A stretch of 64,000 nucleotides of DNA from Tomocerus qinae (lineage: Eukaryota > Arthropoda > Collembola > Entomobryomorpha > Tomoceridae), in contig CM034546.1 of NCBI GenBank assembly GCA_020055645.1, forward strand, positions 2,976,001 to 3,040,000, given 5' to 3'. The position numbers and the translations under genes are program-made. The notes beneath the pieces were generated by a model. It was not told the origin of the DNA. It was given only the letters and a program-made list of their open reading frames with translations, and made no database searches. Shown one piece after another: positions 92 to 62,158 of the stretch (its first letter is position 1; the number at the start of each line of letters is the position of its first letter).

Positions 92-719
92 AATGCAACG
101 CAGCAGTTTATATATATAGTGGGTGCTTCATATTAATTTAACAAACATCTTATGCAATTGGTAACGACGTATATATGTCATCGTACCATACCAAACCTAG
201 GCCCAGGTAGATATCCACCGTGAGGATTCAAATCATCGGCCTAGTAAATCCATGGTGCATGTATGACCTAGTCAACGCTTTTTATTTGCGTGCACAAAAG
301 TTGCAATTTAATTGATTTTCACGGTTAGGCAGTTTTGGTGGGTATCCTTAGTTAAAAAGCATCATCCTCATTTGGGGCAAAAATACAAATGGCTTATTAA
401 GGATACACTTTTACACTATCCACTTTACACAAATAAAATGGTATTGCTAATTGCCAAGTAAAAATAACAAATTACTGGCATGGTAGTTAAATATCGACCA
501 ACAAATCATGCTCCTCCTTTGATTGCTTGCAAAATTTAAATTAAATTGTTTTCTTTTCATTTTAAGCATGACCGCCCAGCTTATCATTTTCATTAATTGA
601 TTGTCTTTAGGGAGTCATCACTTCCTTTTTACTTTTATTAAACTAATTTGTGAGCAGAATTGGCCATTGTCAGCTTGAGCTAACAGCTTTTATTGGAGAC
701 TCAATTGGCGCTTTATTTA
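92..719. other. Gene-free spacer
   Basis: No coding region was recognised. The first part (about 110-150) continues the similarity to the upstream regions of P450 genes 4 and 5, with a shared CATATTAATTTAA. The rest is AT-rich sequence in which I see nothing. Confidence 0.4.
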
Positions 720-10822: not shown

Positions 10823-11781
10823 CGTCAAAATTGAAAACAATTGATTTTGGTGACGTCCTATCTTCTTAATTAATATTTATTGTAAAGACTAATTACATAA
10901 TGAGCTTTCGTGAGCCCTTAACTTGTCTTCTTAGCTATAGTAAAAGTTAATTCCTGTCGACACAAAAAGAAGTAAAATCGAGCACAAAATTTTAATTTTT
11001 GTGGGGCGTTCTTAAGCAACTGTTAAGGAAATACCAAGCCTAAATCTATTAGGCCCGCAATTCGCGCGCTCCAAAAAATGTTAATTTTGAATAATGCAGA
11101 AATTTATTTGGGGAAAGGGCTACATCTGAATCAGGAGAATATCAGATAGCCTTAATCTATGAATCTCTAACACAGGTCTTGTAGCCTTAACATGTTTTAA
11201 CACTGTTTTCTGGAGAAATGCAGTTTTATTTCAATTGCTAAAAATTGTCAAGCGATTCGATGGATAAATAATGAATGATTGAAGAAAAATATTACTTCCA
11301 GTGGAAGTTACAAGTAATTGTTTATTCATTGCTTATTCAATGTAAGTAAACAAATATTCGAGTGTTACCATTTATAGTTACTTATTATATGCAGCACAAT
11401 AACAACAGTACTGGCCATACTAAGTAGTTCAGTTAGCCCCATGCAACAAAAGTTGCTACATAAAAAAATAAAAGTGACATTGAACTTGCAAGAGTATAGT
11501 CCAACCGCCTAAATTGTATGGAAACTACGTTAATACAGGCTTTCGGTTGATTTCGTTTTTCGCTTTCGACAACAAGGCCAACAAGATTTCAACAGAGCTG
11601 CATCATCAGCACACTTTATCCAGCCTGTGTTACCTATGTTAAATAATAGTTAGTATATGCTTAATATTCGTATATGATTACACATGATAAGTCTTTTTAT
11701 GACTGCATTTACCCTTTTATTATATAACAACAAAGCCGCATTCATCTATATCTAAAGCGACGCCCTCATGTTTGTTTGCAA
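10823..11781 (+). other. P450 gene 3-4 spacer; holds the empty site of the gene 4-5 insertion
   Basis: No gene. From about 11090 it aligns with 15210-16300 in the next spacer, interrupted only by the 763-bp element there. The uninterrupted equivalent of the insertion site is at 11181-11220 (GTAGCCTTAACATGTTTTAA). Confidence 0.55.
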
Positions 11782-14223: not shown

Positions 14224-15307
14224 CATTCAATATAGGAAAAAATTGATTTTGACGACGTCCTGCTAGTTTGATGAAATTAATTGTAAAGATTATTAACATA
14301 TTCATTAGTTAGATACTACAGTCACTAAAAAGGCTCAAAGAATGAAGCATGTATGTATGTAGAAAGTTCCAATTTCAAAGACTGCACTTGGCGATCTGTT
14401 TAACATAATTTGAAGCTCTATGCAAACCTATGCACATTTTTCATACTTTTCAACGTTTCTGAATACCCCCACTAAATAAATCAATCTTTGTAAGCTTAAT
14501 ATATATATATATCATATTTAAAAACTGGGTCTTATAATAAAATAATTTTGTATTCGAAATTTCTTATTTAGATTGTGATACTTAATAATTCCTTGGAATG
14601 AAAGTTCGATTATCAAATTTATTAGCTGTAAAATCTTTCTACTTTGTATAGACAGTTATTTTTCAAATCGCCTCTTAATCTAAAATTTTGTTTGACCATT
14701 GTAGTTAAATATGTAATAATTATATTTGTATCTAACTTGTCAATAAAGTTGCACCTAAAAATTAAATTGAGTGATGGCGAGGAATTATTTTTTAATTCTC
14801 CGATTGACTTCGATATTCTATGCATTTAGATACCAATTACTAGCATACGACAAAAATCGTAAAAGCTGTTGTCCAGTAGACAGGATATAGAATGCCATAG
14901 CAAAAATGTCGTACAATCGGTCATTTGGAGAACATAGTAGTGTTCTGTAGTAGGCTATAAGGCTACAGGGTTTAGGTACGTTTTTGCGACATTTGTCTCA
15001 GGGTGGTCAATAATACAAAAGTTATTTATAGTTATATAAGAAGGGCTGTCGCGTTTTGATGCAGTCAATTTGACAGGAAACTATTTCCAAATGTAATATC
15101 TCAAAAATGGCTAAACAATCTACATATTCCTGTCTTAGCCTATATTTTATTTTCTTATAAGCAACAATTATAAAAATGCATAGTATGAGTCCATAAGCAT
15201 TTCGTTCGCTACAAATGTAGAAATTTGTTTGGGAAAAGGGCTACGTCTGAATCAGGAGATTTTGAGATAGCTAATCTACAAATCTAGCAGATCTGTAACC
15301 TTAATAT
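14224..15307 (+). other. First part of the P450 gene 4-5 spacer
   Basis: No gene recognised. It holds a short AT microsatellite near 14500-14512 and duplicated spacer sequence from about 15210. Reading frames of about 60 residues on both strands at 14622-14829 look like chance. Confidence 0.4.
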
Positions 15308-15571
15308 TGTGAGAACACAAACATCTCCTTTAGGGATATAGACTCAGAGATAGGAATGATTAGGGGTGATTTTGAATAGATTGGTAAGGTAGTCAAATGA
15401 GGACGAAGAGGACTAAAAAGTTATCACACACGGCTAGTATCGAAGCTAGCACCTCTCGCAATCCGGGCAAGTATTCTAACCATTAAACTACATGTGCGTA
15501 TAGGAAATTAGGAAGGAATTAGGAAGAGTCATTCTAATGTGAATACAGGTATTCACATTATCTTTCTTACA
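15308..15571. repeat. Left LTR-like direct repeat
   Basis: 264 bp, TG...CA. A perfect 12-bp inverted repeat with a 2-nt spacer (TAATGTGAATAC at 15535-15546, its complement at 15549-15560) lies next to its right end. It contains the tRNA-like unit at 15425-15497. Confidence 0.75.
15425..15497 (-). tRNA. tRNA-like cloverleaf, copy 1 (probably not a functional tRNA)
   Basis: Read on the minus strand, 73 nt fold as a cloverleaf. The acceptor GCACATG pairs with CGTGTGT (including G-U pairs). The D arm is GTTT/GAAT with loop AATGGTTA. The anticodon stem CTTGC/GCGAG has loop CCGGATT, and the T stem GCTAG/CTAGC has loop CTTCGATA. The A-box-like TAGTTTAATGG and a B-box-like TTCGA core are present, and a T5 run 5 nt past the 3' end (15415-15419) could stop RNA polymerase III. 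Deviations: C instead of U at position 33, an 8-nt T loop and a G-U first pair. The formal anticodon is GGA (Ser), but the body lacks a long variable arm, so a genuine tRNA-Ser is unlikely. Confidence 0.5.
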
Positions 15572-15801
15572 TGCCCTTCGCTCTCTTCGCTACCTATAAT
15601 GGGGGATACGGGTTTGATTCCCTTAGTCCCTCATATGCGTTTTGCTGTATGAGTCTTACGGCAATACAGTGTGCTGCTGACTGAGAGGCTTATGCACAGG
15701 CTGCAAGTGCTCATGTATAGCTTGGCAATGAGAAGTATAGGGAAAGGTGTATAGAGCACTATCCACTACTGGATAAGAGATACACAAATTACCCCGCATC
15801 T

Positions 15802-16070
15802 TGTGAGAACACAAACATCTCCTTTGGGGATATAGACTCAGAGATATGAATGATTAGGGGTGATTTTGAATTAGATTGGTAAGTAAGGTAGTCAAATGAG
15901 GACGAAGAGGACTAAAAAGTTATCACACACGGCTAGTATCGAAGCTAGCACCTCTCGCAATCCGGGCAAGTATTCTAACCATTAAACTACATGTGCGTAT
16001 AGGAAATTAGGAAGGAATTAGGAAGAGTCATTCTAATGTGAATACAGGTATTCACATTATTTTTCTTACA
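15802..16070. repeat. Right LTR-like direct repeat
   Basis: 269 bp, nearly identical to 15308-15571. It carries the same 12-bp hairpin (16034-16059) and tRNA-like unit. Confidence 0.75.
15924..15996 (-). tRNA. tRNA-like cloverleaf, copy 2 (probably not a functional tRNA)
   Basis: Same 73-nt sequence as copy 1, with no differences that I can see although the surrounding repeats differ, and the same T5 run (15914-15918). See copy 1 for the fold and deviations. Confidence 0.5.
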
Positions 16071-16725
16071 ATATTACGAAATACCATTTTCAGGAGAAAT
16101 GCAGTTTTACTTCAAGAGATTTATTGGACAAATAATGAATGCCTGAACAAAAATAATACTTCCAGCCGAATTCACAAGTAAAAATTGCTTATTCAGTGTA
16201 AGCAAACAAGTATTCGAGTATTACCATTTATAGTTACTTATATGCAGCGCAATAACAACAGTACTGGCATACTAAGTAGATCAGGTAACCCCACGCTTAA
16301 TAAAGTTGCAGAATACTAATAATTAAAAGTGACATTGAACTTGAGTATAGTCTAATAGCCCAAATATGCAAACAAAGCTCTCCGAAGCTTTCAGCTGAGT
16401 TTGTTGGTCACTTTCGACAAGGCCAAGGTTATTTTCCTCAGAGCTGCATATCTTCTTTCTGAATAACATGTATGTACATTTTATCTAATCTGTGTTATGT
16501 AATACTGCCTGAGTTTTAATAGTTAGTATATGTTTAACATTCGTATATGATGGCACAAGATGACTTTGCATGCCTACATTTACCCTTTGCTGATATTATA
16601 ACAGCAAAAACAGCATCCAATTATGTGGGAGTTTCTGACTACCAAAAGAGATTGCAATTCCTGCACAGATACAATACAAATACATGCAACTATATCTATA
16701 AGCGATGCTCTCATCTTTGTTGGTG
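16071..16725 (+). other. Second part of the P450 gene 4-5 spacer
   Basis: No gene. Duplicated spacer sequence continues to align with 11205-11780. The 74-residue frame at 16547-16771 lies in this duplicated non-coding DNA and is not conserved as protein. Confidence 0.45.
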
Positions 16726-40183: not shown

Positions 40184-40197
40184 CTTATATTTAAAGG
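40184..40197 (+). promoter_or_regulatory. Possible TATA-like element of the PKS gene
   Basis: CTTATATTTAAAGG lies about 205 bp upstream of the preferred ATG. AAACATTGCTAATTACTAAT followed by TTTGAACAG (to 40338) looks like a branch point and acceptor of a 5'-leader intron. Weak evidence. Confidence 0.25.
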
Positions 40198-40395
40198 TTT
40201 AAAATAATGTGTACCTTGTTACTGTCATTATCTCTTGGCAAATATCATTGTTTAAATGTGGGTATAGTTAATAGAAACCTAACACTAGCCAGATGGAAAA
40301 CATTGCTAATTACTAATATATTCCATAACTTTGAACAGGAATCATACACGTTTTGGCATACGTTATGGAAAGAAACAGAAATCGAATTGAAGATA

Positions 40396-43300
40396 ATGGC
40401 ATCTGGAAAAGAATTAAAACAAGATTTTGTGGACAAAAACGTCTCAAGTATAGAGAAAACTGACCACTATAAACACGCCATTGCTATTGTTGGTCATAGT
40501 TGCCGATTTCCTGGAGCAAACAGCATTGACGAGTTTTGGGAATTAATAAAAAACGGAGGCGATGGAATTCGTTCCGTTCCGGTTGAAAGGCTTTCCGAAA
40601 GTCAACTCAACGATGCTAGATATACAGAATCCAAGGCTGGATTTTTGAAATGTCCCATTTCAGAATTTGATGCCAAATTTTTTGGGATCAGTCCTCGAGA
40701 GGCGGCCTTCATGGATCCACAGCAAAGGCTTCTGGCTGAAGTGGCGTGGGAAGCGTTGGAAAATGCTGCAATCGATCCACATTCTTTGAAAGGCAGTAAC
40801 ACGGGAGTATTTACTGGAATTTGGACACAAGACTACGAACGATTGATTGCCGAAAACTCAACTGCACAAGATTTCCACCATGTGATCCTTGGAAACGCTT
40901 TTTCTGCAACATCCGCGAGAGTTTCTTACTTCTTGGGTCTCAATGGACCGAATGTGGCTACAGAGAGCGGCTGTTCCTCTTCGATGGTGGCTCTTCACCT
41001 GGCTTGCGACAGTCTCAGGAAAAGGGAAACCAATTTGGGTTTAGTGTTGGGGGCTAACCTTATTATTATTCCACTACCACTCAGCGAAATTTCAATTTTG
41101 GCCAAAGATGGTCACTGCAAAACGTTCGATGAATCGGCGGATGGTTTTGGCAGAGCAGAAGGAGTGGCCACAATTGTGTTGAAAAGATTGCCAGATGCAA
41201 TTAAAAATGGTGACAGGATTATGGGCATTATTAGAGGGACAGCATTGAGTAACGAAGGAACATCTTCCAATTTCGGAACTCCGAGTAAACTTTGTCAGCA
41301 AATTGCTATAAATGATGCTTTGAATAATGCACGAGTCAAGCCAGGAGATGTTGATTATGTAGAGGCACATGGAACTGGAACCCCCATTGGGGATCCCATT
41401 GAATTCGCTGCAATTTCAGCCGGCTACACTGGAGAAAGGGAAAAACCACTTTTAATTGGTTCGGTGAAAACAAATACAGGCCACACTGAATCATCAGCTG
41501 GGTTAGCTGGACTAATTAAGGTTATTCTGGCGATGGAGCATGAAGAGATTCCTCCGCATAGAAATTTCACTAAACTAAATCCAAGTATTGACTTGGACGT
41601 TGTTCCAGCTGTTATTCCTCTTGAACTAACTCCCTGGAGCCGAAATTCTGAAAGACCCCGAATTGCGGGAGTGAGTTCATTTGGAATAAGTGGGACTAAC
41701 GTTCATGTTGTTGTAGAGGAGCCTCCGTGTGATAATAAAACACGTCCTCTGGAACTACATGGTCTAGAGTCTGACAAATCTCATCATATTCTAACGCTTT
41801 CTGCAAAATCAGAAAATGCTCTCAAAGATTTGACCAGTCTTTATGCCAAGTATTTGAAAAACCACCCAGACGTTAGTGTAAGTGACCTCACTCACACCTG
41901 CAATACTGGGCGGGCACATCACAAGCACCGTTTGGCGGTTATTGGGAAATCTGTGGCTGATTTTCAGAAGGCTTTAGATAGCGATGTGCAAATTCCACCA
42001 GCACTTCATATTAAACCAAAAGTAGCTTTTCTATTTACAGGACAAGGTTCTCAGTATTATGGAATGGCGAAATCTTTATTCCAGTCGAGTTTCGTTTTTC
42101 GTCAAGCTTTTAGTGAATGCCAAAATCTTGTTTATGATTGCAATGGCATTTCCTTACAAAATGCATTATGGGTTGATGCAGATAGTAATTTACTGGACCA
42201 AACAATCTGTAGCCAGCTATCTATTTTTGCTGTAGAGTACGGTCTTTTGAAAATGTGGGAAAGTGTAGGAATTATTCCAGATATTGTTCTAGGACACAGT
42301 GTCGGTGAATATGCAGCTGCCGTTGCTGCGGGAATAATTAATTTGAAAGACGCCATAACCTTGCTAGCTGAAAGGAGTAGATTAATCCAAAGTCTCCCAC
42401 CAGGTGGAATGATAGCCATTCGTTCATCAAATGAGAACGTGTTCAAATTAATTTCAGCATTTTTAAATGTAAATTTTGAAATGTGGTTAGACGTTGCTGT
42501 TATTAATTCACAGGAAGAAACAGTTGTAGCTGGAAGCACAAATTCAATTGAAGCTTTCAAAATGTTTTGTGAAAATAATGAGGTTAAATTTCAAGTGTTG
42601 GCAGCTTCACATGCCTTCCATTCAAGGGAAATGGAGAAAATAGCAAAGAAGTTTGGGGAATTTTCAAGCAAAATGTCTTACATGTCTCCAAAATGTCTTT
42701 ATGTTTCAGGAACTACAGGAAACATTATTTCTAGTAATGAGATGGAGGATGGAAGTTATTGGGTGAGACATGCAAGAGAATCGGTTAATTTCCAAAAGGG
42801 AATTTGTACCTTAGGAGACTTCGGAAGTAATGTTTTTGTAGAAATTGGGGCACATCCCGTATTGCTAGCTTTGGGTATGTCCAACTTGAAAGATTCAGAC
42901 AGTCGTCTTTGGTTACCATCTTTAAGAAAGAACAAAGACGACTGGGAAACGATTCTTAATAGCATCGGGACATTGTATGCAAACGGAATGAATATAAATT
43001 GGAAATCAATAGACAATTGCTGTGCCTTAAAAAAGTTGCAATTACCAACGTATCCATTTCAGAGACAAAGATATTGGACTGAAACACCTTCTGATTGTAG
43101 TGAGAAGATAATTCATCCTCTCCTTGGAAGAAAAATAGTCCTGGCTGATCTAGCCGATCATGTATACGAGCATAAATGGAACCTAAACGATCTTCAATAT
43201 GTTAAAGATCATCAAGTAGCTCATGTAATCGTTTTACCGGGTGCTGGATTTTTAGAGATAATTTTAGCTGCTGGGAAGAATATTTTTCAAAAAAATATAG

Positions 43301-46300
43301 AAGACGATTTGGGTGTATTGACAGTTCAAGACTTTGTTGTGGAGGCGCCCCTGGAGTTGGAGGAAGGGATTAAATACAAAACTCAGGTTGTTGCTTCTCC
43401 TGTGGAGAATAAGAAAAATACGTATCATGTTAAAGTTCATGTATTTAAAAACTTAAATGGATATAACGACGAAAAAGGATGGAAACGATATTCTAGTGCT
43501 TATGTGTCTCTTACAGAGTCTTCAAATTTGCCGATTCAGAACAGTGTCGGGGAAGGGGAAATTATTTCCGGACAGGATAAAGAAGATCCTAAAATTAGTT
43601 ATTTCATTGAAGAAATAGACACAATTAAAAATCGTTGTCAAACAGAACTAGATTCAAAGGAATTCTACAAGTTAGCTCCAGAAATTGGAATATATTTTGG
43701 TGACAATTTCCAAAGCATCGACTCAGTTTCCGTAGGAGATAACGAGGCTGTGGGTTTGATTCCAACCGTAACTAAAGCAGGAAATGTTGCTGATTACATT
43801 TATCATCCAATTATTCTGGATGCAATGATACAGCTATTCGGTTTAAGTATGGGAAGGGAGAACATAGATTTATATTTGCCAATTGGCGTTGAACAAGTAA
43901 TTCTGGTGAACGATTCAGTTGTAGAAGATTTGTTCGCCCATGCGAAGTGGTCGGGTGAAAATTCAGTGGGGACTGTAGCCCTCTACAGTAAGAAAAATGT
44001 TCTTCTTGTTCTGATGGTGGGTGTTCGATTAATGAAGACGTCAGTCAGTTCGTTTCTGAATGTGGTTAATGCCCAGAAGAATATGTTACCTGGAATGTAC
44101 CAGACAGTTTTTAGACAAAGAATAGGACCTGTGCAGGCCCGAGTTGATGTGAGTAAAATAATCGACGCAGAAAATGTAATTATTCCATTTTTTGAATGCA
44201 TGGAGCAGCATGAGCATTTGTATTCAGTGGAAGTTCATCAGAAATCTGATGAGGGAGTTAGACTGAACATAATCAAAATATTGATACAAAATGGATTTAC
44301 ACCTAAGGTAGGAGTTGTTTATTGGATGGAAGAGTTGTTCCAGAATTATGTTATAAAAGGGTCACATCGATGGTTCGTTAAACGATTTTTCGAAATTTTA
44401 TGCCAAGATGGCTACGGTATCGAAATTGACAGTGGATCTGGATTTATGGATGGGTGGAAGTGTACTAAAGAGTTTCCAACAATTGAAGAAATTGATAAAA
44501 TTCAGGAAGAGATTAATGAATTTATTTATGTAAAAGACGCTCCTGAAGGTCGAACTGTTGTATCTCATATACTGCAAAAAAGTTACAGTCATATATGGGA
44601 CGTTTTACTTGGAAAAAAGACAGCTGTATCAGCTTTGTTTGAAAGTGATTTCAATCTATTGGACATATACACAAAGAGCAATGAATGTGTTCTTGCTAAT
44701 TTACGTCTGGCAAAGTATCTTGGGTTAGCTCTCCAAAGGTTTAAATCGGATCCAAAAAAAGAGGATTCTATTGTTCGGATTATTGAAATAGGAGCTGGCA
44801 GTGGGGCTACGACAAAGGAAATTGTGACCATTTTACAAAAAGAAGAAATTCCCTTTCGTTACACATTCACCGATATTTCTCCTCATTTTTTTGAAGGAGC
44901 CAAAGAACAATTTTCAGCCATCAACGGAATTGATTACAAAGTTTTAGACATTGAAAAAGATCCAACTTCACAAGAATTTTGTTTACATCATTATGATATT
45001 GTTGTTGCATCTAATGTGTTACATACTGGTAAGACTTTAAAGACTTCTTTGATTAATGCACGTAAGCTGATCCGAACTAATGGTATTTTAGTATTGGAAG
45101 AAATTACCAGACCTAGTAGAGCGTTAGATACAATATATGGCATTTTAGACGGATATTGGAGTTTTACCGATTACGACATACGACCTCGTCACATAATGAC
45201 AACAGTTGAAATATGGAATAAATTGATGATCGAAACTGGATTCACCAAGGCGGTTAATTTATCCGGTAAAGATGAGTTTATAAGTTGTTTGACCTCTCGG
45301 GCAGTAGACTTGGAAACCATTCAAACTATCAGTTTAAATAATAAAAATGACGTGTCAACGGTTGTTAAAAAGACTGCTTGGATTATTTTTGGTGAAATTG
45401 ATAATTTATCAGAACGGATTAAAGAAAAATTGGCACAAATTTGTGATGAGGTAATTATAGTTAACAGTGGAGGGACAGAGTTAGAAAACGAGGGCCAACG
45501 TGTTTATTATCACGATGTAACTAACGATAGTTCTGTAACGAAAATTGCAACGACCTTAAATGAAAAATATGTTGTTAAAGGTATAATATATTCGGCAACC
45601 ATGATAAACTGCGATAATAAGGAAATGGCGTACAGATCATTTTTAAACGTTGGCAAATTCATCTCAGAGGCCGCTAATAACAATTTTCAATTACTTGTAG
45701 TCACAAGAGGAGTATATTACATTCAAAATCAAAAGGACCTTACTCCCTGTAATGCGGCCATTTTGGGTATGTCTAAAAGCCTCGTGAATGAAGTTTCTAG
45801 TATACAGGGCAAAATGGTAGATTTGGACCCCGATGAATGCGATTTTACAATTGAAAGCCAACAAATATTTTTTGAGTTGTTTGATAGAAAGGAGCCTTTA
45901 GTTTGCTATAGGAGTAAAAAGAGGTTTGTATCCAGACTTGTATCGCTACCGCGTACATTGGCACCACTTACACTTCCACAAGGACGATATACAATTGAAA
46001 TTCCTAAATCCAAAAAAATTAATGATGTCAGTTTTACTTCAATGGAAAAAATCCCTCTTGGTCCTAAAGATATTGAAGTCGTAGTTAAAGCTGTCGCATT
46101 AAATTTCAGAGATATTTTTGTCATTATTAAGCCGGATATGTTTGCTTCATTGAAGGAGACAATTGGATCAGACTTTTCAGGAATTGTTTCCAAAGTTGGA
46201 TCACAAGTTACTAAGTTTAATTTAGGCGATGAAGTTTATGGAGTCTCACTAAGCAGCAGTGTAGCCAGTCATGCTATAACTCATGAGGACATAGTTATAC

Positions 46301-49300
46301 ATAAACCAAAAGAAATGACTTTCACAGAAGCAGCAACTCTTCCTTCAGTTTTAATGACTGCCTTTTATTGCATGGTGACTGTGGCTGATTTGCAAAAAGG
46401 CGAAACTATTTTAATTCACGTTGCTTCAGGTGGGGTTGGATTAATTGCCATTCAGATAGCCAAAAATATCGGGGCTGAAATAATTGCCACTGCTGGATCT
46501 CATAGAAAGCGGAATTATCTTCGCACTTTAGGCATTGAGCATGTATTCCATTCCCGAGATTTGACTTTTGGAGATGAAATATCTAGAGTGACGAATGGAC
46601 GAGGTGTAGACATGGTTCTCAATTCTCTGACTGGACACGGATTCAAAGAAACAACTCTCAAGGCTTGTGCACTAAATGCACGTTTTGTGGAGATTGGAAA
46701 AGTAAATATCTGGAAACCAGAAGAAGTTTCGGAATTACGACCCGATGTCCAATACACTATTGTTGACTTAGAGAAATCAACAACAACAGAAATGGGAAAG
46801 TTGATTGATGAAATGAAAAGTCAAAGCAAAGAAGATTACAAAGCATTACCTTATTCCAGATATGACGTGGTTAATATCAGGGATGCACTGAATTATTTTT
46901 TGAAAGCCAACCACATCGGAAAAATTGTGGTGACTATGCCAGATATGATCGAAACTGGGAATCAAATCCTCAGAAAAGATGTAATATTTAATCCAAATGC
47001 TACTTACTTAATTACAGGTGGGTTAGGTGGAATTGGGCTGGAGGTAGCAAAATGGATGACAGAATCAGGTTGCAAATGTCTAGTTCTAGTTGGCAGATCA
47101 GCACCGAATGAAGCGGTTTTACAAGTGTTGTCCAATTTAAGAGCGAAGGGATGCAAAATATTTTCATTCCAAGTCGACGTTGGTAATTGGGACCAATGTA
47201 ATTCCCTATTCGAAACGATCTCCTCTTCTGTTCTTCGTCTTCCTCCTCTAAGAGGCGTGATTCATTCTGCTGGTGTCATCTCTGATGCAATCTTCATGAA
47301 TCAAACGTGGGAAAGATACGAAGCTGTTTTCAATGCTAAAATTGCAGGGTGTCTCAATTTACACAAATTAACAAAATATTTGCACTTAGAACACTTTGTT
47401 CTATTTTCTTCTATGGCAGGTCTTTTTGGCCCAATGGCACAAAGTAACCACGCTGCCGCAAACGCTTTCCTGGATTCATTTGCTCACTATCGCCACTCTA
47501 TTGGCCTTCCAGCTCAAACGATAAATTGGGGAGGGTGGGCAGAGATAGGCGCGGCTTCTAACACAGTTTATGGAAATGAAGGCGCTTTAGGGGTAAAGCC
47601 GTTCACTCCTAATCAGGGCATCGCATCTCTAAAATTTATTATGAGTAGACCAGACTTACTCCAAGTAGGAGTGATTCAAATAGATTTTTCTGAATTTAGT
47701 CAACACTTCGATTTGGGAAATTTGCTTTCAGAGTTGACGGAAAATGCAGATGCTAAAGAATCTTCTCTTACCTCTATTCAATCCGAAACATTTTGGAATG
47801 AAATTGGACCACTTTCTGTTGCCGAACGAACTACTTATATTAAAGCTAAACTGACTGCAATTATTAGAAAAACGTTGAAGCTGCCTGAATTGGAGGCGAT
47901 AGACGAATTTCAAACATTCCAGGAAATGGGATTAGATTCTCTAATGGCTGTGGAAATGAAAAACAAACTGCAGGGAATTGTAGGAAAGCGAATAACGTTA
48001 AATGTCTCAGCAATGATGGATCATCCAACTATAAATTCATTGGGTAAATTTTTGGCAGAGAAAACACTTGAAGCAGATTTGGAGAACGACGGTGCAGTCA
48101 AGAATGAAGTAGCTGAATTTGATGTCAAAGCTATGTATGAATTGGTTAAGCAGGACTTCATTCTCGTGGATAGCATTCAGGGTCGTAACGATTGCACAAC
48201 GCCATCAGAAGTAAAAACTGTTTTGCTAACAGGATCAACTGGACATCTGGGTGCATATATTTTAAGAGAGTTATCTAAGATTGGGAAATTAAATTGTATT
48301 TGTTTGATTAGAGGAAAGTCGGTTGAACATGCACGGAGGAAGTTGATTGCTAATTTGAAAAAATATGCAGTATTAGACGATATTAATTTAGACAATATTT
48401 CTATTATATTAGGTGACATTACAGACGAAAATTTGGGCTTTCCCATCGAAGAATATCATAGACTTTCATCGTTAATTGACATGGTTTTTCATCTGGCCGC
48501 AAAGGCAAATCATGTTGAGAAGTATTTAGTCGCCAAGGGACATTTGACAGATATTCGCTCAGTCAATGTGCTAGGAACAGTTAATATAATAAAATTTGCT
48601 GCCCGTTTTAAAACTAAGCGAATTGTATTTCCATCTTCCTTTACAGCAATTAACCGTCTCACAGATGATGGATTCATTTGCGAAGATTTCCCTGATAACG
48701 AAAATAATGCCGATGATCTTACATTGGGTTATTCGGTGACCAAATTTGTGTGTGAAAAATTACTTAGACAAGCAAATGAAAGAGGAATTCCTTGTACCGT
48801 AATTAGATATTCGAGTCTTTTGGGGCACAGCGAGACAGGACTTTTTGTGTCAAACACAAATTCGGCAGTCAATCAACTACTTTTATCCCTTCGATTTGGA
48901 ATGGTTGCGGACGTAGAAAGCTGCTGGTTTGGTATCCCCGTTGATACAGCCAGTAAGCTAACATTGGAATTAGTGTTCAATGATAAAGTCGAATCAGGAG
49001 TTTTCAATATCGTCCAACCTGTGCCTACATATGCTAAGGACATTATTGCAGTAGCCAAGCGGTTAGGTTTTAATTTGGAATTAGTAACTTTGAAAGAATA
49101 CGAAGAAAAAGTTAAAAAGGAAATAGAAACGAGTAGCTTTTTAGCTGTTCTCAAAGATAGTTATGGCGAAAATGGTGAATTTTCGTACACAGAGTTATCT
49201 AAAACTCATCCAAAAATGCGGCAATTTTTGGAGAAAGGAATAAACACCAATAGAATAAGTGAAAAGTGTAAAGAATTAATTCCAGACATCAATGACAGAA

Positions 49301-49401
49301 TTCCACATCCACAAAATATTTTATATCTCTACCTAGAATTTGCTCATCGCAGTGGTATATTCGAGAAATTTGGGATAAAGGTTCCAAATCCTGGGCAATA
49401 A
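40396..49401 (+). CDS. Highly reducing type I polyketide synthase with terminal reductase domain
   Basis: One exon, about 3,001 residues. The frame is open from 40207, but MASGKEL at 40396 is preferred because the preceding residues are low-complexity and include a likely splice acceptor. Domains by residue: KS ~29-442 (C193 in ESGCSSSM; H325 in EAHGTGT; H363 in NTGHTE). AT ~542-845 (S635 in GHSVGE; HAFH, the malonyl-CoA type). DH ~907-1200 (DHQVAHVIVLP, where the usual Gly is His; HPIILDA). cMT ~1416-1635 (IIEIGAGSGATTKE, intact SAM site). ER ~1880-2190 (ASGGVG). KR ~2199-2395 (GGLGGIG; the usual Tyr is H2352). ACP ~2479-2555 (S2515 in GLDSLMA). Thioester reductase ~2606-3001 (TGSTGHLG; Y2779 and K2783 of YxxxK). 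The predicted product is a reduced, possibly C-methylated chain released as an aldehyde or alcohol. The domain order also fits animal FAS-like PKSs, but the terminal reductase, bacterial-style AT motifs and lack of introns suggest horizontal transfer. Confidence 0.93.
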   Translation: MASGKELKQDFVDKNVSSIEKTDHYKHAIAIVGHSCRFPGANSIDEFWELIKNGGDGIRSVPVERLSESQLNDARYTESKAGFLKCPISEFDAKFFGISPREAAFMDPQQRLLAEVAWEALENAAIDPHSLKGSNTGVFTGIWTQDYERLIAENSTAQDFHHVILGNAFSATSARVSYFLGLNGPNVATESGCSSSMVALHLACDSLRKRETNLGLVLGANLIIIPLPLSEISILAKDGHCKTFDESADGFGRAEGVATIVLKRLPDAIKNGDRIMGIIRGTALSNEGTSSNFGTPSKLCQQIAINDALNNARVKPGDVDYVEAHGTGTPIGDPIEFAAISAGYTGEREKPLLIGSVKTNTGHTESSAGLAGLIKVILAMEHEEIPPHRNFTKLNPSIDLDVVPAVIPLELTPWSRNSERPRIAGVSSFGISGTNVHVVVEEPPCDNKTRPLELHGLESDKSHHILTLSAKSENALKDLTSLYAKYLKNHPDVSVSDLTHTCNTGRAHHKHRLAVIGKSVADFQKALDSDVQIPPALHIKPKVAFLFTGQGSQYYGMAKSLFQSSFVFRQAFSECQNLVYDCNGISLQNALWVDADSNLLDQTICSQLSIFAVEYGLLKMWESVGIIPDIVLGHSVGEYAAAVAAGIINLKDAITLLAERSRLIQSLPPGGMIAIRSSNENVFKLISAFLNVNFEMWLDVAVINSQEETVVAGSTNSIEAFKMFCENNEVKFQVLAASHAFHSREMEKIAKKFGEFSSKMSYMSPKCLYVSGTTGNIISSNEMEDGSYWVRHARESVNFQKGICTLGDFGSNVFVEIGAHPVLLALGMSNLKDSDSRLWLPSLRKNKDDWETILNSIGTLYANGMNINWKSIDNCCALKKLQLPTYPFQRQRYWTETPSDCSEKIIHPLLGRKIVLADLADHVYEHKWNLNDLQYVKDHQVAHVIVLPGAGFLEIILAAGKNIFQKNIEDDLGVLTVQDFVVEAPLELEEGIKYKTQVVASPVENKKNTYHVKVHVFKNLNGYNDEKGWKRYSSAYVSLTESSNLPIQNSVGEGEIISGQDKEDPKISYFIEEIDTIKNRCQTELDSKEFYKLAPEIGIYFGDNFQSIDSVSVGDNEAVGLIPTVTKAGNVADYIYHPIILDAMIQLFGLSMGRENIDLYLPIGVEQVILVNDSVVEDLFAHAKWSGENSVGTVALYSKKNVLLVLMVGVRLMKTSVSSFLNVVNAQKNMLPGMYQTVFRQRIGPVQARVDVSKIIDAENVIIPFFECMEQHEHLYSVEVHQKSDEGVRLNIIKILIQNGFTPKVGVVYWMEELFQNYVIKGSHRWFVKRFFEILCQDGYGIEIDSGSGFMDGWKCTKEFPTIEEIDKIQEEINEFIYVKDAPEGRTVVSHILQKSYSHIWDVLLGKKTAVSALFESDFNLLDIYTKSNECVLANLRLAKYLGLALQRFKSDPKKEDSIVRIIEIGAGSGATTKEIVTILQKEEIPFRYTFTDISPHFFEGAKEQFSAINGIDYKVLDIEKDPTSQEFCLHHYDIVVASNVLHTGKTLKTSLINARKLIRTNGILVLEEITRPSRALDTIYGILDGYWSFTDYDIRPRHIMTTVEIWNKLMIETGFTKAVNLSGKDEFISCLTSRAVDLETIQTISLNNKNDVSTVVKKTAWIIFGEIDNLSERIKEKLAQICDEVIIVNSGGTELENEGQRVYYHDVTNDSSVTKIATTLNEKYVVKGIIYSATMINCDNKEMAYRSFLNVGKFISEAANNNFQLLVVTRGVYYIQNQKDLTPCNAAILGMSKSLVNEVSSIQGKMVDLDPDECDFTIESQQIFFELFDRKEPLVCYRSKKRFVSRLVSLPRTLAPLTLPQGRYTIEIPKSKKINDVSFTSMEKIPLGPKDIEVVVKAVALNFRDIFVIIKPDMFASLKETIGSDFSGIVSKVGSQVTKFNLGDEVYGVSLSSSVASHAITHEDIVIHKPKEMTFTEAATLPSVLMTAFYCMVTVADLQKGETILIHVASGGVGLIAIQIAKNIGAEIIATAGSHRKRNYLRTLGIEHVFHSRDLTFGDEISRVTNGRGVDMVLNSLTGHGFKETTLKACALNARFVEIGKVNIWKPEEVSELRPDVQYTIVDLEKSTTTEMGKLIDEMKSQSKEDYKALPYSRYDVVNIRDALNYFLKANHIGKIVVTMPDMIETGNQILRKDVIFNPNATYLITGGLGGIGLEVAKWMTESGCKCLVLVGRSAPNEAVLQVLSNLRAKGCKIFSFQVDVGNWDQCNSLFETISSSVLRLPPLRGVIHSAGVISDAIFMNQTWERYEAVFNAKIAGCLNLHKLTKYLHLEHFVLFSSMAGLFGPMAQSNHAAANAFLDSFAHYRHSIGLPAQTINWGGWAEIGAASNTVYGNEGALGVKPFTPNQGIASLKFIMSRPDLLQVGVIQIDFSEFSQHFDLGNLLSELTENADAKESSLTSIQSETFWNEIGPLSVAERTTYIKAKLTAIIRKTLKLPELEAIDEFQTFQEMGLDSLMAVEMKNKLQGIVGKRITLNVSAMMDHPTINSLGKFLAEKTLEADLENDGAVKNEVAEFDVKAMYELVKQDFILVDSIQGRNDCTTPSEVKTVLLTGSTGHLGAYILRELSKIGKLNCICLIRGKSVEHARRKLIANLKKYAVLDDINLDNISIILGDITDENLGFPIEEYHRLSSLIDMVFHLAAKANHVEKYLVAKGHLTDIRSVNVLGTVNIIKFAARFKTKRIVFPSSFTAINRLTDDGFICEDFPDNENNADDLTLGYSVTKFVCEKLLRQANERGIPCTVIRYSSLLGHSETGLFVSNTNSAVNQLLLSLRFGMVADVESCWFGIPVDTASKLTLELVFNDKVESGVFNIVQPVPTYAKDIIAVAKRLGFNLELVTLKEYEEKVKKEIETSSFLAVLKDSYGENGEFSYTELSKTHPKMRQFLEKGINTNRISEKCKELIPDINDRIPHPQNILYLYLEFAHRSGIFEKFGIKVPNPGQ

Positions 49402-54370: not shown

Positions 54371-56251
54371 TTAAAAAGGTTGAACCAATGTTTGCTTTTT
54401 GAGCCGAGATTTCTTTATGTACCCGACCATTTCAAGTAAAAATATAATGAAAGCAGCAAAGAGAAGGTAACCGACCAAAAGAAAAATCGTATGAATTTTC
54501 ATGTCAAAATTAATACTTTTGGGTCTGGATTCCTCGAATTTAATTATTGCATCCAATCTACGTTCTGAGTAGTCTGATCTATGTCGTTCCCACATAAGCG
54601 AAAATCCTGTTTCTAGTAATTGCTGAGAAAACGAGACATATTCATGTCTAAAGGCTTTTAGATAGGACCAGAGTAGAAAATATGTAGCAACCCGTTCTTT
54701 AGCTGAATTACATTTGGCGTGAGGATGTAGATTTCGAAGATATTTCAAATATCCCAAGATCCGTTGTTTCGGAACTGGGCGCATTATTTTCAAACTAGTA
54801 TTGCCTATAAATTTCATTTCTAAGTTGCTAAAATGGTAACCTTGCTTTCTGTAGTCACCAGCCGTTGCTTCCCTTTGCCAGTCATACAAATATGTATAAT
54901 TTTCTTTATCGGAAATTCTATTCTTAAAAAACAAGTCAGAATAATCAACCGAATTAGAGCCGTCCAGTTGCTCTACAACTTTGTATCCGTTTTCAATTAG
55001 CTCTTTAAAATTTTGATATATCTTAATTTCCGATGGGACAATTACTTCACTTGTCATGTACGTCTCGTACAGAGATGTGACTACGATTGACATTAATAAA
55101 ACAGACATTGACAGAATGTGTCTCTTATACACGTATGTAGATTGACCAACTATCATTCCTGCTGTTTGCAAAACGGCTAGGACTACATTTGTACCAAAAT
55201 GCTGACCGGTAGAGTAAATAACAATTAAGATGAAATTGGCAAGAGGGAAAAATAAAAATATGAGTACCCAACTGACAGTATCGAACGTATTTTGCACCCA
55301 AACTGATAATGATACACTCAGAAAGGTTTCTTTTTCCTCGCAGTAGATGGCAAAGCTTGAGTAGCCTGAAGATTGAAACATTGTATTGTACCATCGAACA
55401 TTTTCTGCCATGGCGTAACCATTCGCAACATAAATACGTGAAAGGGGTGCTTCATTAAATTTTACCTGATCAGGTTTGCCGTAAACTGCTGAAAAGTTAA
55501 ATCTCTCTGCCATTGCCTCCACTTGTCTGTACTGAAAGACACATTCGACAGATACTTTAAGCAAATTGTATGTTGATTTAAGACATTGCTTCTGTGATGA
55601 TCCAATTGAGCTATAAAAATAATCCACTACATCAATCTGTTGCCTGTGAAGATGCCCATTGAGATCAGACCATTTGTTTATCCATTTGTCTTCTTCCACA
55701 TCTGAGTTAATTTCCACAAACGGAGAATTGGTAGATTTGTATAATTCAATAGTGTAGACAGACTGGCTTGTAAAGTCGTGGATTAAGAGAAGGTAAATTC
55801 CAAGAACAGACTCAAATTTTAGACTAGGAAAAAGGTAAAAAATATTGATCATAGTATCCTTTCCTTTGGCCTTCTCGTTTAAAATTATGAATTGAGAAGA
55901 GCGGCGATTAACTTCTGATCCAAAATAATAACTCAAAGAGTAAAATGGTTTGTCTGGCTCCAGAAGAATATTAATGCTGCACAAGCTGTTTGTTATATCA
56001 CTGGGATTGTTTTCATTCCGACCGAAGAGAGTTTTATTATAGTTTGGAGTGGCGATTGTCCAGGGCTGATGGTTTTGATTAGACTTCAAAAATTCTTCGC
56101 CCCATTGAAGTGCGCCAAATTTTATAACGTTGAAGTCACAACTTTTAAATAGTGATAAATTTCCAGCACAAAGGGCTTTGAATTTATTCAAGAACTGTAC
56201 AATCAAAAATATGCTGAGATACCGAATGAGATACATTACAAATTCGTACAT
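54371..56251 (-). CDS. Ionotropic-receptor-like protein 1 (intronless)
   Basis: 626 residues in one exon. Residues 1-29 include a hydrophobic signal-like segment; a second Met at residue 6 is an alternative start. A long extracellular region follows (SLCSINILLEPDKPF; EVNRRSS). The receptor module then shows TM1 at about 328-350, a second hydrophobic segment ~357-375, TM3 ~384-400 ending SLYETYMTSEVIVP, the NFKELIENGYKV segment seen in the ligand-binding lobe of arthropod IRs, and a last TM ~584-612 (KIHTIFLLVGYLLFAAFIIF). The topology is that of the IR branch of glutamate-receptor channels, used in chemosensation at the dendrite membrane. The glutamate-binding residues are not evident. It is a paralogue of the 57587-59446 gene. 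The family call is by topology and short motifs only. Confidence 0.7.
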   Translation of the reverse strand: MYEFVMYLIRYLSIFLIVQFLNKFKALCAGNLSLFKSCDFNVIKFGALQWGEEFLKSNQNHQPWTIATPNYNKTLFGRNENNPSDITNSLCSINILLEPDKPFYSLSYYFGSEVNRRSSQFIILNEKAKGKDTMINIFYLFPSLKFESVLGIYLLLIHDFTSQSVYTIELYKSTNSPFVEINSDVEEDKWINKWSDLNGHLHRQQIDVVDYFYSSIGSSQKQCLKSTYNLLKVSVECVFQYRQVEAMAERFNFSAVYGKPDQVKFNEAPLSRIYVANGYAMAENVRWYNTMFQSSGYSSFAIYCEEKETFLSVSLSVWVQNTFDTVSWVLIFLFFPLANFILIVIYSTGQHFGTNVVLAVLQTAGMIVGQSTYVYKRHILSMSVLLMSIVVTSLYETYMTSEVIVPSEIKIYQNFKELIENGYKVVEQLDGSNSVDYSDLFFKNRISDKENYTYLYDWQREATAGDYRKQGYHFSNLEMKFIGNTSLKIMRPVPKQRILGYLKYLRNLHPHAKCNSAKERVATYFLLWSYLKAFRHEYVSFSQQLLETGFSLMWERHRSDYSERRLDAIIKFEESRPKSINFDMKIHTIFLLVGYLLFAAFIIFLLEMVGYIKKSRLKKQTLVQPF

Positions 56252-57586
56252 TTAATAGTGGGCAGGGACCATTTAAATAGATATATATTATTAGTATGAA
56301 ACAATAAGAAATAAATATTTTTTGGAAATTAAATTTATCAATAGTAATTAATCGCTGTTCCAGAAACGTAAAATCGGAGTAAAATTGCCTGTAATTTTTT
56401 GGTTAAATTCTGTTGTAGACCAATTTGTCAAAACTATTTGTGTAATAATAGCGTTCAAATAATTCAAGATGACAATAAAGATTAGGCAATTTTCCTATAA
56501 AAATTATGTTTCATCTGTGGGGAAGCAATTCTAGTTAACTTACTACACCTAATTTATCAACAAACGTGAACGAGAAATTGACTAAATATTTTTTCTGCGA
56601 TTGGTGTCTTCGGAATCAATACGAAAGGGAATGCGTTTAAATTTCTACCATTTGTGTAAGCTACTAGGCTTAAAAATAAGTCATACCTAATGGTATTTGC
56701 AAACTGTCCGTCTCAAAGTAAGGAAGTAGAACTAAACAAATAAGTATTAAGAAATTCATGATAACTTCGCTGCCCAATGTGCGCATTAAAAATAAGCTGC
56801 GATAGAAGCATGCAATAGAAATATGTTAACAAGGAACGTAGACAAGCATATTAGCCAGGAAAGTGGTGGGTAGTTGTGGCTATTTATGCAGTAGGAAATC
56901 GATATTTCTAAGCTAAAGACATCATCAAGGCTAGGCACTAACATTTTCTGTTGTATGCCACGTAAATATACACAGTAATATCTTCTTCATATTCCTGGTG
57001 GAAAGGGTGCCATTTAATGGGTCGATGAAAAATTATTCCCTAAAAAGTCCCTAAAAATAGGTATACTATAATAATTTAAAAAGACCCTACAAATGCTGAA
57101 ATGAATTGATTGAAATGATATGATAGAAGATATGATAGATAGAAATGATTGAATTGTCTTGAATAAATAGCGTTTTCATCCCGTGTGGGTACTTATGAAA
57201 CCTCTCAAGATACTACTTCTCACCACCATACTGCATTTTTATTTTTCAAATGATTTTGGAACAAAATGGAGATCTTTTTGGTTTACTGCAAAAAAGTACT
57301 AAGGCTTAAAATTGCAAATTAGGTCCCCTTTTAACCACATACTGGGATTTTGAAATATAGGGCTGTATATTGAATTCCCTAATGTAGCCGTAAGTTGTTT
57401 TCGTCTTTATGCTTCAAGCATATCGGTGCAAATGAACATTATTTGGGACTGTTCTTACAATTAATACTTGATAAAATACAGTGGAATCCATATGCTGTTA
57501 TTATACATTACACTTACATAAATACTTTTTATGTACAATAAATACTTTGTTGAGTTTGCACAATATTATGCTTCAAATTCAAATAC
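56252..57586. other. Spacer between the two receptor-like genes
   Basis: No gene seen. It contains the upstream region of receptor gene 1 and the 3' flank of gene 2. No shared promoter block with the other receptor gene was visible to me. Confidence 0.4.
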
Positions 57587-59446
57587 TTACAAATTAAACC
57601 AATTTTGAAAAGAAAACCAATGAAATAGTTTAGTCCAAAAGAGCTCAACGCAAAACGATACGAGAAATGCGAGACTGAGATATCCACACAAAATAAAGAT
57701 CGTGTGGATTTTCATTCTTAAGTTGATGCCCACGGGTTGACTTTCTTTATGCTTTGTTTTTGCATCGAGTTGTTTGTATAGCAGATATGAAAAGTACCAG
57801 TGCTGCTCTTTATAATGAGAGAGTAGTCCTTCCTCCAGCATCCTTTGCAAGTACGCATGGAAATTGTGACGGTTGCAGCCCACAAAAATATAAAACAGTG
57901 CCTCTGTACCCGCACTATCCTTTGTCGTCATGCAATGCCCACCAGTTGAATATAATTTTGACCTTGCTAATGCATGTTGCACATCTTGAACTTCTGCAAC
58001 GCGAAATATTTTCATGGAATAGTTGGTCATTAAATTGAAGATCACTTTATTGTAGCTTCCATTTGGTTTCTCTTCTTCCCAATCATAAATGTAAACACTG
58101 GATTGCTCTTTTTCCAATATTTTATATTTACGAAATAAGTCTGTTTGATTTGAATTCCAATTGATTCGCTTGTCTTTCTGGCTCAGTACTTTGTAACCAC
58201 TTTCAATTAGTTCTTTGAAGTCTTTGAATATTTTCCTGTCTGGAGGTGCAATGATTTCGCTAGTTATCCAAGTTGCATAGAGAGTAGTGATTGCGAATCC
58301 CGTGGTTACTACAATCAAAAACAGACTCCTCCTTCTGTTATAGACAACTCCCTGGTCTAGAAGAACAGCTGCCAAGGAAATCAAAATCCTTCCTAGTTTC
58401 TTAGCTGCGGAGGGATTCGTCGACCCTAAAGCTAAAACTAAAAATGAAATTGGGAAGAGAGAGAAGATGAGAAGCCAGCAATAGTCGTCAAATGTATTCT
58501 GAATCAGCACCGACAATGGAACGTCGTGGAAATTAGGAGAGGCTTCACAGTAGTAGGGAATAGTGTCTGGAAAGTCTTCAAAAAATGTGGATCTATCCCA
58601 ATAATTTCCATATGGAGTCGAATAATGGGATAGCAGTTGTATCAATCCAAAATTTGAGTCAATTGAATTTGATTTAAAATGTTTGAAACTTGCAGCATAA
58701 ATTGTAGTAAAATTTAGTGCAACGGCCATTGTCTCCGTCGCTCTGTATGTAGATTCACAAATTCCATGACCCTTTTTCAGCGCAAAGTAGACAGAATCTT
58801 TGCATATTGAATATGAAGTAGCGTTTTCAAATCGAAAAGACATTTTCGTTCCTCGAAATGTGATGCCATGGAGATGTCCGTTGAGCGAGTGCCAAACTCT
58901 TTCCCAATCTTCATCCTCAATTTGTGTGTCTGCAACGAATCTCCTTTGGTTGTACAAATATCCAGTATGGACTGTACTGTAAGTGGCGTTGTGGATCATC
59001 AATATAAAAAGCTGACTAGACAATTCCCGTCTGAGACTTAATTGCCAATTTTGATGTTGACTTTCGACACTCTTCCTTTCATGGATAATTATGAATGTAG
59101 AAGAGCGACGATTGACCTCTTTTCCAAAATAATTACCCAGTAGATAGTAAAATGCGACATTCGGTTCCATGAGAATGTTGACACTGCACAAATTGTTTGA
59201 CAAGTCCCGTGAGTTTTCTTCATGTCGGCCAAATCGGCGTCTGTTGTATTTGTCTTTTGAAGCAACTGTCCATGGCTGAGAGTTTTGATTAGCTAACAGA
59301 AAACTCGTCGTCCAAACAGGATTAAATACAATTAAATTGAAGTCACAATTTCTGTAGTGTGACAGATTTCGGACGCCTTTGGAGGTCTGAATACAAGAGA
59401 ACCCCAAAGCAAAAGAAAAGCAAATGTGAAGACTTTCGAAATACAT
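57587..59446 (-). CDS. Ionotropic-receptor-like protein 2 (intronless)
   Basis: 619 residues, single exon, same strand and layout as the receptor at 54371-56251. MYFESLHICFSFALGFSC is a likely signal peptide. Conserved with gene 1: NLCSVNILMEPN, FGKEVNRRSSTFIII, VLIQNTFDD before TM1 (~319-343), TLYATWITSEIIAP after TM3 (~369-398), DFKELIESGYKVLSQ, and MKIHTIFILCGYLSLAFL in the last TM (~577-603). The proteins are clearly related but diverged, so the duplication is old. A channel or chemosensory role is inferred from topology; the ligand is unknown. Confidence 0.7.
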   Translation of the reverse strand: MYFESLHICFSFALGFSCIQTSKGVRNLSHYRNCDFNLIVFNPVWTTSFLLANQNSQPWTVASKDKYNRRRFGRHEENSRDLSNNLCSVNILMEPNVAFYYLLGNYFGKEVNRRSSTFIIIHERKSVESQHQNWQLSLRRELSSQLFILMIHNATYSTVHTGYLYNQRRFVADTQIEDEDWERVWHSLNGHLHGITFRGTKMSFRFENATSYSICKDSVYFALKKGHGICESTYRATETMAVALNFTTIYAASFKHFKSNSIDSNFGLIQLLSHYSTPYGNYWDRSTFFEDFPDTIPYYCEASPNFHDVPLSVLIQNTFDDYCWLLIFSLFPISFLVLALGSTNPSAAKKLGRILISLAAVLLDQGVVYNRRRSLFLIVVTTGFAITTLYATWITSEIIAPPDRKIFKDFKELIESGYKVLSQKDKRINWNSNQTDLFRKYKILEKEQSSVYIYDWEEEKPNGSYNKVIFNLMTNYSMKIFRVAEVQDVQHALARSKLYSTGGHCMTTKDSAGTEALFYIFVGCNRHNFHAYLQRMLEEGLLSHYKEQHWYFSYLLYKQLDAKTKHKESQPVGINLRMKIHTIFILCGYLSLAFLVSFCVELFWTKLFHWFSFQNWFNL

Positions 59447-60201
59447 TTTATATTGCTAATTAGCCTACAATTGTGGAATCTTGACTATGATTGAGTCCTT
59501 CCCTTATATTGCTAACTAGTCTGTTAAGAAATAGAACAACGTGCAAAAAATTGTTCAGTTCGCTGCCAGAGGCTTTTACGTTATAAATCCCAAAGTTTTA
59601 CTCCATACAACATTTATCCTGATATTTTCTTTTAGAGTAATTCACAAGATTAAATGCTATGCATTTCTTTCCCTTTCCACTGCTGGACTATTCTCCCGTT
59701 TAAATATAGGTGTGACATTGTGTTGGCTTTAAGTTCCTAAGGAAAGTTAAGGACACAGAACTTCAAAACACACGTACAATTCCTTGATTGGTAGAATTGA
59801 TATCCTACTTTGTCTTTCTATAATTGTCTCCTATATATAATATGTAAATGTCGATGTGCGATGGATTTACAAGCCGATAAATACCACATAATTGTTTTAG
59901 CCAATACATAATAACTGCATGTACAAAATATAAGGGTAGCCTTTAAAAGCCTACAAATACTTGCGTAGAAGGAGTACACTAAAAACGACAAAGAAATGTT
60001 TGTTCACACAAATGGAAGACCTCGGCTCGTGGTATCTAAATTATTTAGAGGAAACAGAAATCGATGATGGTCATTTCATTTGAATTTAAAGCCGCTGTTA
60101 GTTGTGTTCTTCTTTGCGGCTGCTAGTATAAGTAATTAAATAATTACAACGTTACCTCTGTGACTTCTTACAAATGAATATGATTGAAATAAAGTGTAAT
60201 C
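59447..60201. other. Gene-free stretch
   Basis: Upstream of receptor gene 2. The 63-residue plus frame at 59541-59732 has no recognisable feature. It ends with the AATC target copy of the next element (60198-60201). Confidence 0.4.
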
Positions 60202-62154: not shown

Positions 62155-62158
62155 AATC

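Follow-up and report, generated by a model that had tools for sequence, protein, structure and literature searches.

A further Helenus-type TRIM carrying a tRNA-like, putative Pol III unit in both LTRs

The element at 15308-16070 of the window (the whole stretch of 64,000 nt that was analysed, C1:2976001-3040000) is a well-supported further member of the Helenus type of TRIMs, not a new kind of element. We consider it probable that it is mobilised in trans by Gypsy-type functions and that its LTRs contain a captured tRNA-like Pol III unit, which would be kept as promoter and terminator. A sequence-only reading of this DNA had described TG...CA direct repeats, an ATAT target duplication and a paralogous empty site around 11181-11220, and all three were recovered by our analysis. 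The element is composed of a 264-bp LTR, a 230-bp internal region and a 269-bp LTR, with ATAT on both sides (Table 1). The two LTRs are 97% identical and run from TGTGAG to CTTACA. With a total of 763 bp, two LTRs and a short non-coding internal part, it has the size and structure of a TRIM, and no reading frame of 150 aa or more was detected within it. When its flanks were joined without the insert, they aligned across the junction to a second place in the window with 75% identity. The surrounding cytochrome P450 array thus contains a paralogous empty site, which reads ACAT at the target, not ATAT.

Table 1. Features of the element and of its empty site (window positions)
Feature	Position	Strand	Evidence
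Target duplication, left (ATAT)	15304..15307	.	Flank comparison, site survey
LTR, 264 bp; 3' LTR if sense = minus	15308..15571	-	Repeat alignment
T5 run, candidate Pol III terminator	15415..15419	-	Five-T run in 39/45 LTR rows
73-nt tRNA-like unit	15425..15497	-	Rfam RF00005, 36.3 bits
B-box-like CTTCGATAC	15437..15445	-	One mismatch vs GWTCRANNC
A-box TAGTTTAATGG	15480..15490	-	Zero mismatches vs TRGYNNARNNG
Palindrome in LTR, near-perfect, 26 nt	15535..15560	.
Candidate polypurine tract GAAGAGAGCGAAGGGCA, adjoins LTR	15572..15588	-	Purines 15/17
Internal region, non-coding	15572..15801	-
Expected primer-binding site position; none recognised	15784..15801	-
LTR, 269 bp; 5' LTR if sense = minus	15802..16070	-	Repeat alignment
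T5 run, copy 2	15914..15918	-
73-nt tRNA-like unit, copy 2	15924..15996	-	Rfam RF00005
B-box-like motif, copy 2	15936..15944	-
A-box, copy 2	15979..15989	-
Palindrome, copy 2	16034..16059	.
Target duplication, right (ATAT)	16071..16074	.
Paralogous empty site	11127..11234	+	Joined-flank alignment

The P450 array occupies 1900-25300 of the window and comprises seven tandem gene units, spaced 2.7-3.6 kb apart and 4.8-5.0 kb at the element; the one exon tested gave a Pfam p450 match. Further along, a single uninterrupted frame of 3068 codons (40195-49401, plus strand) encodes a type I polyketide synthase with KS, AT, DH, methyltransferase, zinc-dehydrogenase (ER-like), KR and carrier domains and an NAD-binding reductase at its end. 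Such a frame is unusual for an animal, and a horizontal origin is possible. Two long intronless membrane-protein-like frames lie at 54371-59455 on the minus strand; they are reminiscent of divergent ionotropic receptors, and the one searched against Pfam gave no match. An inverted repeat at 60199-62157 has arms of 723 nt, 99% complementary, at a spacing of 513 nt. The insect odorant receptor family yielded one weak match genome-wide (31.7 bits, one stop) in a search run without an insect control. This, with the few long contigs of the assembly, points tentatively to an arthropod that is not a winged insect, possibly a springtail.

The repeat is not unique to this locus. We searched the assembly (334 Mb, most of it in five contigs of 24-140 Mb) three times, each time with another LTR copy as query. 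Together, the searches located at least 45 separate LTR places, with 40 matches scored per search from 85, 82 and 86 first-look candidates. The internal region had 13 matches. No fewer than 36 insertion sites are represented: 30 obtained by merging, four added by the second LTR search, one with internal sequence only and one LTR added by the third search. They range from full copies to solo LTRs and include a tandem array. The internal part was found between LTRs at nine sites, including the array (S13), which consists of four LTRs and three internal regions. One site has an internal region with one LTR and another the internal region alone, and all other analysed sites hold only LTR sequence within the stretch fetched. 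Examination of 35 sites revealed identical flanking 4-mers at 18 of the 25 that could be scored, solo LTRs included, compared to agreement in 55 of 600 comparisons that paired the left 4-mer of one site with the right 4-mer of another. ATAT and ATAC were the commonest duplications. Counted as misses were the array, one site whose left end is an internal junction (S29) and one truncated at the left end (S15).

The LTRs fall into two variants, one starting with TGTGAG and the other with TATAAAAGTAC. Matching 4-mers were present at 11 sites of the former and seven of the latter, the TATAAAA start of which had been set by eye from the flanks before duplications were counted. In the array, three of the four LTRs have the start of the second variant, followed by a body that resembles the first. 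At site S03 (L013 994-1768), the left LTR stands head to head with an inverted LTR fragment, perhaps a product of self-integration or fold-back. The distribution of sites over the genome is uneven: C1 carries 29 of the 36 and makes up 42% of the genome (p 3e-6), and 14 of the C1 sites lie in one 16-Mb stretch at 32-48 Mb (p 9e-7, for a stretch picked after seeing the data).

Each LTR had been proposed to contain a 73-nt tRNA-like unit on the minus strand with an A box, a B-box-like sequence and a T5 run, and this description was borne out, including the anticodon loop CCGGATT and the T loop of 8 nt. Rfam RF00005 matches the unit in each LTR (36.3 bits against a gathering cut-off of 29, E 6e-4 for the window), and scores across genome copies were above the cut-off in 13 and below it in seven of the 20 loci given. 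ARAGORN called no tRNA at the units under default settings. Folding of the unit barely exceeds that of shuffled sequences (z -1.6; 16 of 200 shuffles were equally good). We used TRGYNNARNNG as A-box and GWTCRANNC as B-box motif. In the 45 aligned LTR rows the A box was exact in 41. Seven rows had two B-box mismatches and the other 38 had one; the T run counted five T in 39 rows and four or six in three, and none was found in three. Among 40 of the 63 listed host tRNA loci, Gly-TCC was nearest to the unit (score 16.5, the best of 200 shuffled units scoring 12.5), with only 51 identities. Parts of the unit were also sought as literal strings in prokaryotic, viral and phage collections, and none was found.

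We then compared the unit with the rest of the LTR in an alignment of 45 rows that covers 34 sites and includes all but one of the 45 places, plus one LTR fragment of S03. The unit was identical in 28 rows, representing 19 sites, whereas the largest identical class in the best of 47 non-overlapping 73-nt windows comprised six rows from four sites; 45 of these control windows lie in the left flank and two in the right, since the right one measures just 74 nt. Windows from LTR position 107, which include the T5 run, reached up to 29 identical rows, and nucleotide diversity was minimal exactly at LTR window 118-190 (27-site set). The 26-nt palindrome of each LTR also shows low variation between copies (LTR blocks 229-252, same set).

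On a tree of the 45 rows built without the unit, 12.0 internal-branch changes fell in the 73 unit columns versus 84.6 in the 179 others (0.16 versus 0.47 per column, about threefold rarer; binomial p 9e-5), and terminal branches had 48.0 versus 160.4 (0.66 versus 0.90 per column; p 0.03; Fisher test of internal against terminal branches, p 0.019), all p values being rough because the rows are related and some elements contribute several. A 43-row version gave 9.0 versus 75.5 changes on internal and 49.0 versus 165.5 on terminal branches. The internal-to-terminal ratio was 0.12 in the window at 114, 0.49-0.78 further left and 0.19-0.28 further right. The right LTR flank is fairly conserved as well, so the unit stands out most clearly from the left one.

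A cruder test of shared variants was less robust. With 27 sites, three fell in the unit and 37 elsewhere (p 0.0009); with 34 sites the counts were 15 and 49, and significance was lost (p 0.20), possibly because the older copies have recurrent changes or ancient variants in common. The smaller set uses one LTR per site and omits five of 41 rows that are partial or recombinant (S03_0, S07_0, S12_0, S15_0, S24_1); the larger one restores them and adds four new sites, seven sites more in all. Single-copy variants, which should mostly reflect decay after insertion, were spread evenly, with 24 in the 73 unit columns and 59 in the 179 others at 27 sites, and 31 and 86 at 34 sites. Full-length 73-nt variants revealed no stem compensation (seven changed pairs can still pair, 15 are broken). 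We read these patterns of copy variation as pointing to a unit that is constrained in the replicating lineage and then mostly decays freely after insertion. The sequence-only reading had asked whether the cloverleaf decays as fast as its flanks: changes on internal branches are rarer in it and identity is commoner, but single-copy variants are about as frequent inside as outside. The reading had also stressed that the two units of the window element match base for base. They do, but the two LTRs differ by only about five events (seven mismatches and a 5-nt gap by alignment; four substitutions by count), and by simple arithmetic five random events would all fall outside a 73-nt part of the 264 nt with a chance of roughly one in five. 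This identity is not significant on its own and proves little; the evidence for constraint comes from the other copies in the genome.

The 17 nt adjoining the LTR on the minus strand contain 14-15 purines in all 11 internal regions extracted (of the 13 found), the tract being interrupted by C. At the opposite end, six to eight purines were counted in the six internal regions with a correctly cut boundary; counts for the other five (S13, three times, S22 and S25) include LTR bases, the boundary having been cut by BLAST. The purine-rich 17-mer indicates that the unit probably lies in the sense direction and that the sense strand of the element is probably minus. No primer-binding site was recognised, as complementarity of the internal start to 40 host tRNA loci did not exceed the control (5 of 11 internal regions) in a search of tRNA 3' ends and any 12-mer in both orientations, with Ala, Asp, Leu, Phe, Pro and initiator Met not among the typed tRNAs. 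Self-priming found no support either: in eight comparisons of the transcript start or the unit end with the internal start, 65 to 246 of 300 shuffles paired equally. A genome search with the 14- or 17-nt internal ends detected no other multi-copy element that has them. TGCCCTTCGCTCTC occurred at 12 places, 11 of which belong to this TRIM family, and the 1014 bases fetched for the remaining one (C2:5104372) contained no repeat. ATAAACCCACGCRTCTT, with one mismatch allowed, occurred at 14 places, 11 from this family and three others versus four in the backward control; the window copy itself has diverged too far at this end for a match. Thus, no helper was identified.

We propose a Gypsy-type helper because of the 4-bp duplications and of Kojima's finding for animal Helenus elements, with no helper seen here. 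Its reverse transcriptase and integrase would move the gene-less element in trans. TFIIIC and Pol III would start transcription at the captured unit of the 5' LTR, with minus as the sense strand and the A box, B box and T5 run as signals. Some transcripts would continue past the first T5 and end at that of the 3' LTR; these would carry the unit at both ends, where it could act as the R region for strand transfer. Those stopping at the first T5 would be short, tRNA-sized RNAs. The unit would be retained as promoter and terminator rather than as a working tRNA, and Pol III transcription may be the reason for its retention. Several points count against this explanation. Besides the lack of a recognisable primer-binding site and of a helper, the loss of significance in the shared-variant test and the fairly conserved right flank, the T5 run of the 5' LTR would be expected to terminate most Pol III transcripts before they reach the internal region, and every LTR row has at least one B-box mismatch. 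Going further, one might envisage a tRNA-bearing TRIM lineage outside insects in which the Pol III unit is both R region and most constrained part, reverse transcription is primed without a canonical site for a tRNA 3' end and the integrase accepts TG...CA-type and TATAAAA-type termini; this we regard as doubtful.

It is unlikely that the element is an ordinary Pol II TRIM, whose tRNA-like stretch would stem from an old SINE or tRNA insertion and would be retained not as a promoter but for some other reason, such as packaging, strand transfer through the R region or recombinational homogenisation. A T5 run upstream of the internal region, an imperfect B box and stems without compensation would all suit such an element, but the most conserved block runs from the A box to the T5, and TATAAA is absent from both strands of the window copy. 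Maintenance of the unit by a host tRNA-type or insulator function is very improbable: nothing else in the LTR is conserved as strongly as the unit, yet single-copy variants are as frequent within it as outside, its anticodon loop is deviant and even the nearest of the 40 host tRNA loci is remote from it. Least credible is a dimeric or tandem SINE or other non-LTR repeat, for although SINE heads are characterised by a tRNA-like unit and a tandem array is present, 18 of 25 scorable sites have 4-bp duplications, solo repeats among them, one variant has TG...CA ends and, in the sense direction, 74 nt of the repeat precede the unit, which is followed by T5. The 5'-terminal tRNA head, 3' tail and variable duplications of a SINE were not found.

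The preferred explanation, a Helenus-type TRIM with a putative Pol III unit, has close precedents. Helenus/TRIMp3 elements are described as TRIMs with tRNA-like sequence in both LTRs (Kojima 2024, PMC10886601). In the same account, Helenus elements are 311-1263 bp long, with a polypurine tract next to the 3' LTR and a primer-binding site next to the 5' LTR, and animal members have 4-bp duplications and Gypsy-type mobilisation; the tRNA part is mostly not a functional tRNA, solo LTRs occur and LTR-11_DR forms tandem arrays (PMC10886601). The element studied here falls within this length range and shares the tRNA-like sequence in both LTRs, the 4-bp duplications, the solo LTRs and a tandem array, a likeness judged from the published description. 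Most Helenus families are said there to have TRGCY and YGG in box A and GGTTC in box B (PMC10886601); the boxes here are one letter off, with GCTTC for GGTTC and TAGTT (...TGG) for TRGCY. Kojima's case for function is the conservation of these motifs, and Pol III transcription is stated to be unproven (PMC10886601). The arthropod entries in that paper's Table 1 are Hymenoptera only, six wasp families (PMC10886601), whereas the present host is perhaps not an insect. Differences from Helenus are the lack of a recognisable primer-binding site and, in one sub-variant, an LTR that starts with TATAAAA instead of TG.

The plant TRIM Cassandra carries 5S rRNA in its LTRs, as summarised in PMC10886601, and is reported to form long tandem arrays (PMC7215508). 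Our element resembles it in having a Pol III-type unit and terminator in each LTR and differs in that the unit is tRNA-like. The suggestion that it is the tRNA analogue of Cassandra therefore fits, but the arrangement is not new, having been published as Helenus (PMC10886601). PbTRIM of the harvester ant is an arthropod TRIM with 4-bp duplications, most often ATAT, a TATA box in the LTR and a primer-binding site for tRNA-Leu (PMC3532108); unlike for the present element, no tRNA-like LTR unit is mentioned in the portions of PMC3532108 that we drew on. A literature search for Helenus (since 2024) or TRIMp3 in this sense retrieved only PMC10886601, and among the papers listed, titles and abstract openings pointed to no further report of tRNA-like units in LTRs.

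What is new is perhaps a non-insect arthropod host, together with evidence from copy variation that a putative Pol III unit and its terminator form the most conserved part of the LTR. Also new are the two alternative LTR ends and the lack of a recognisable primer-binding site. The variation among copies within one genome suggests that the replicating element keeps its captured Pol III unit, including the terminator, and the known arthropod range of Helenus-type elements may widen. The family is small, with 13 internal regions found, which suits it to a test of transcription, and tRNA counts in such genomes can include units borne by LTRs.
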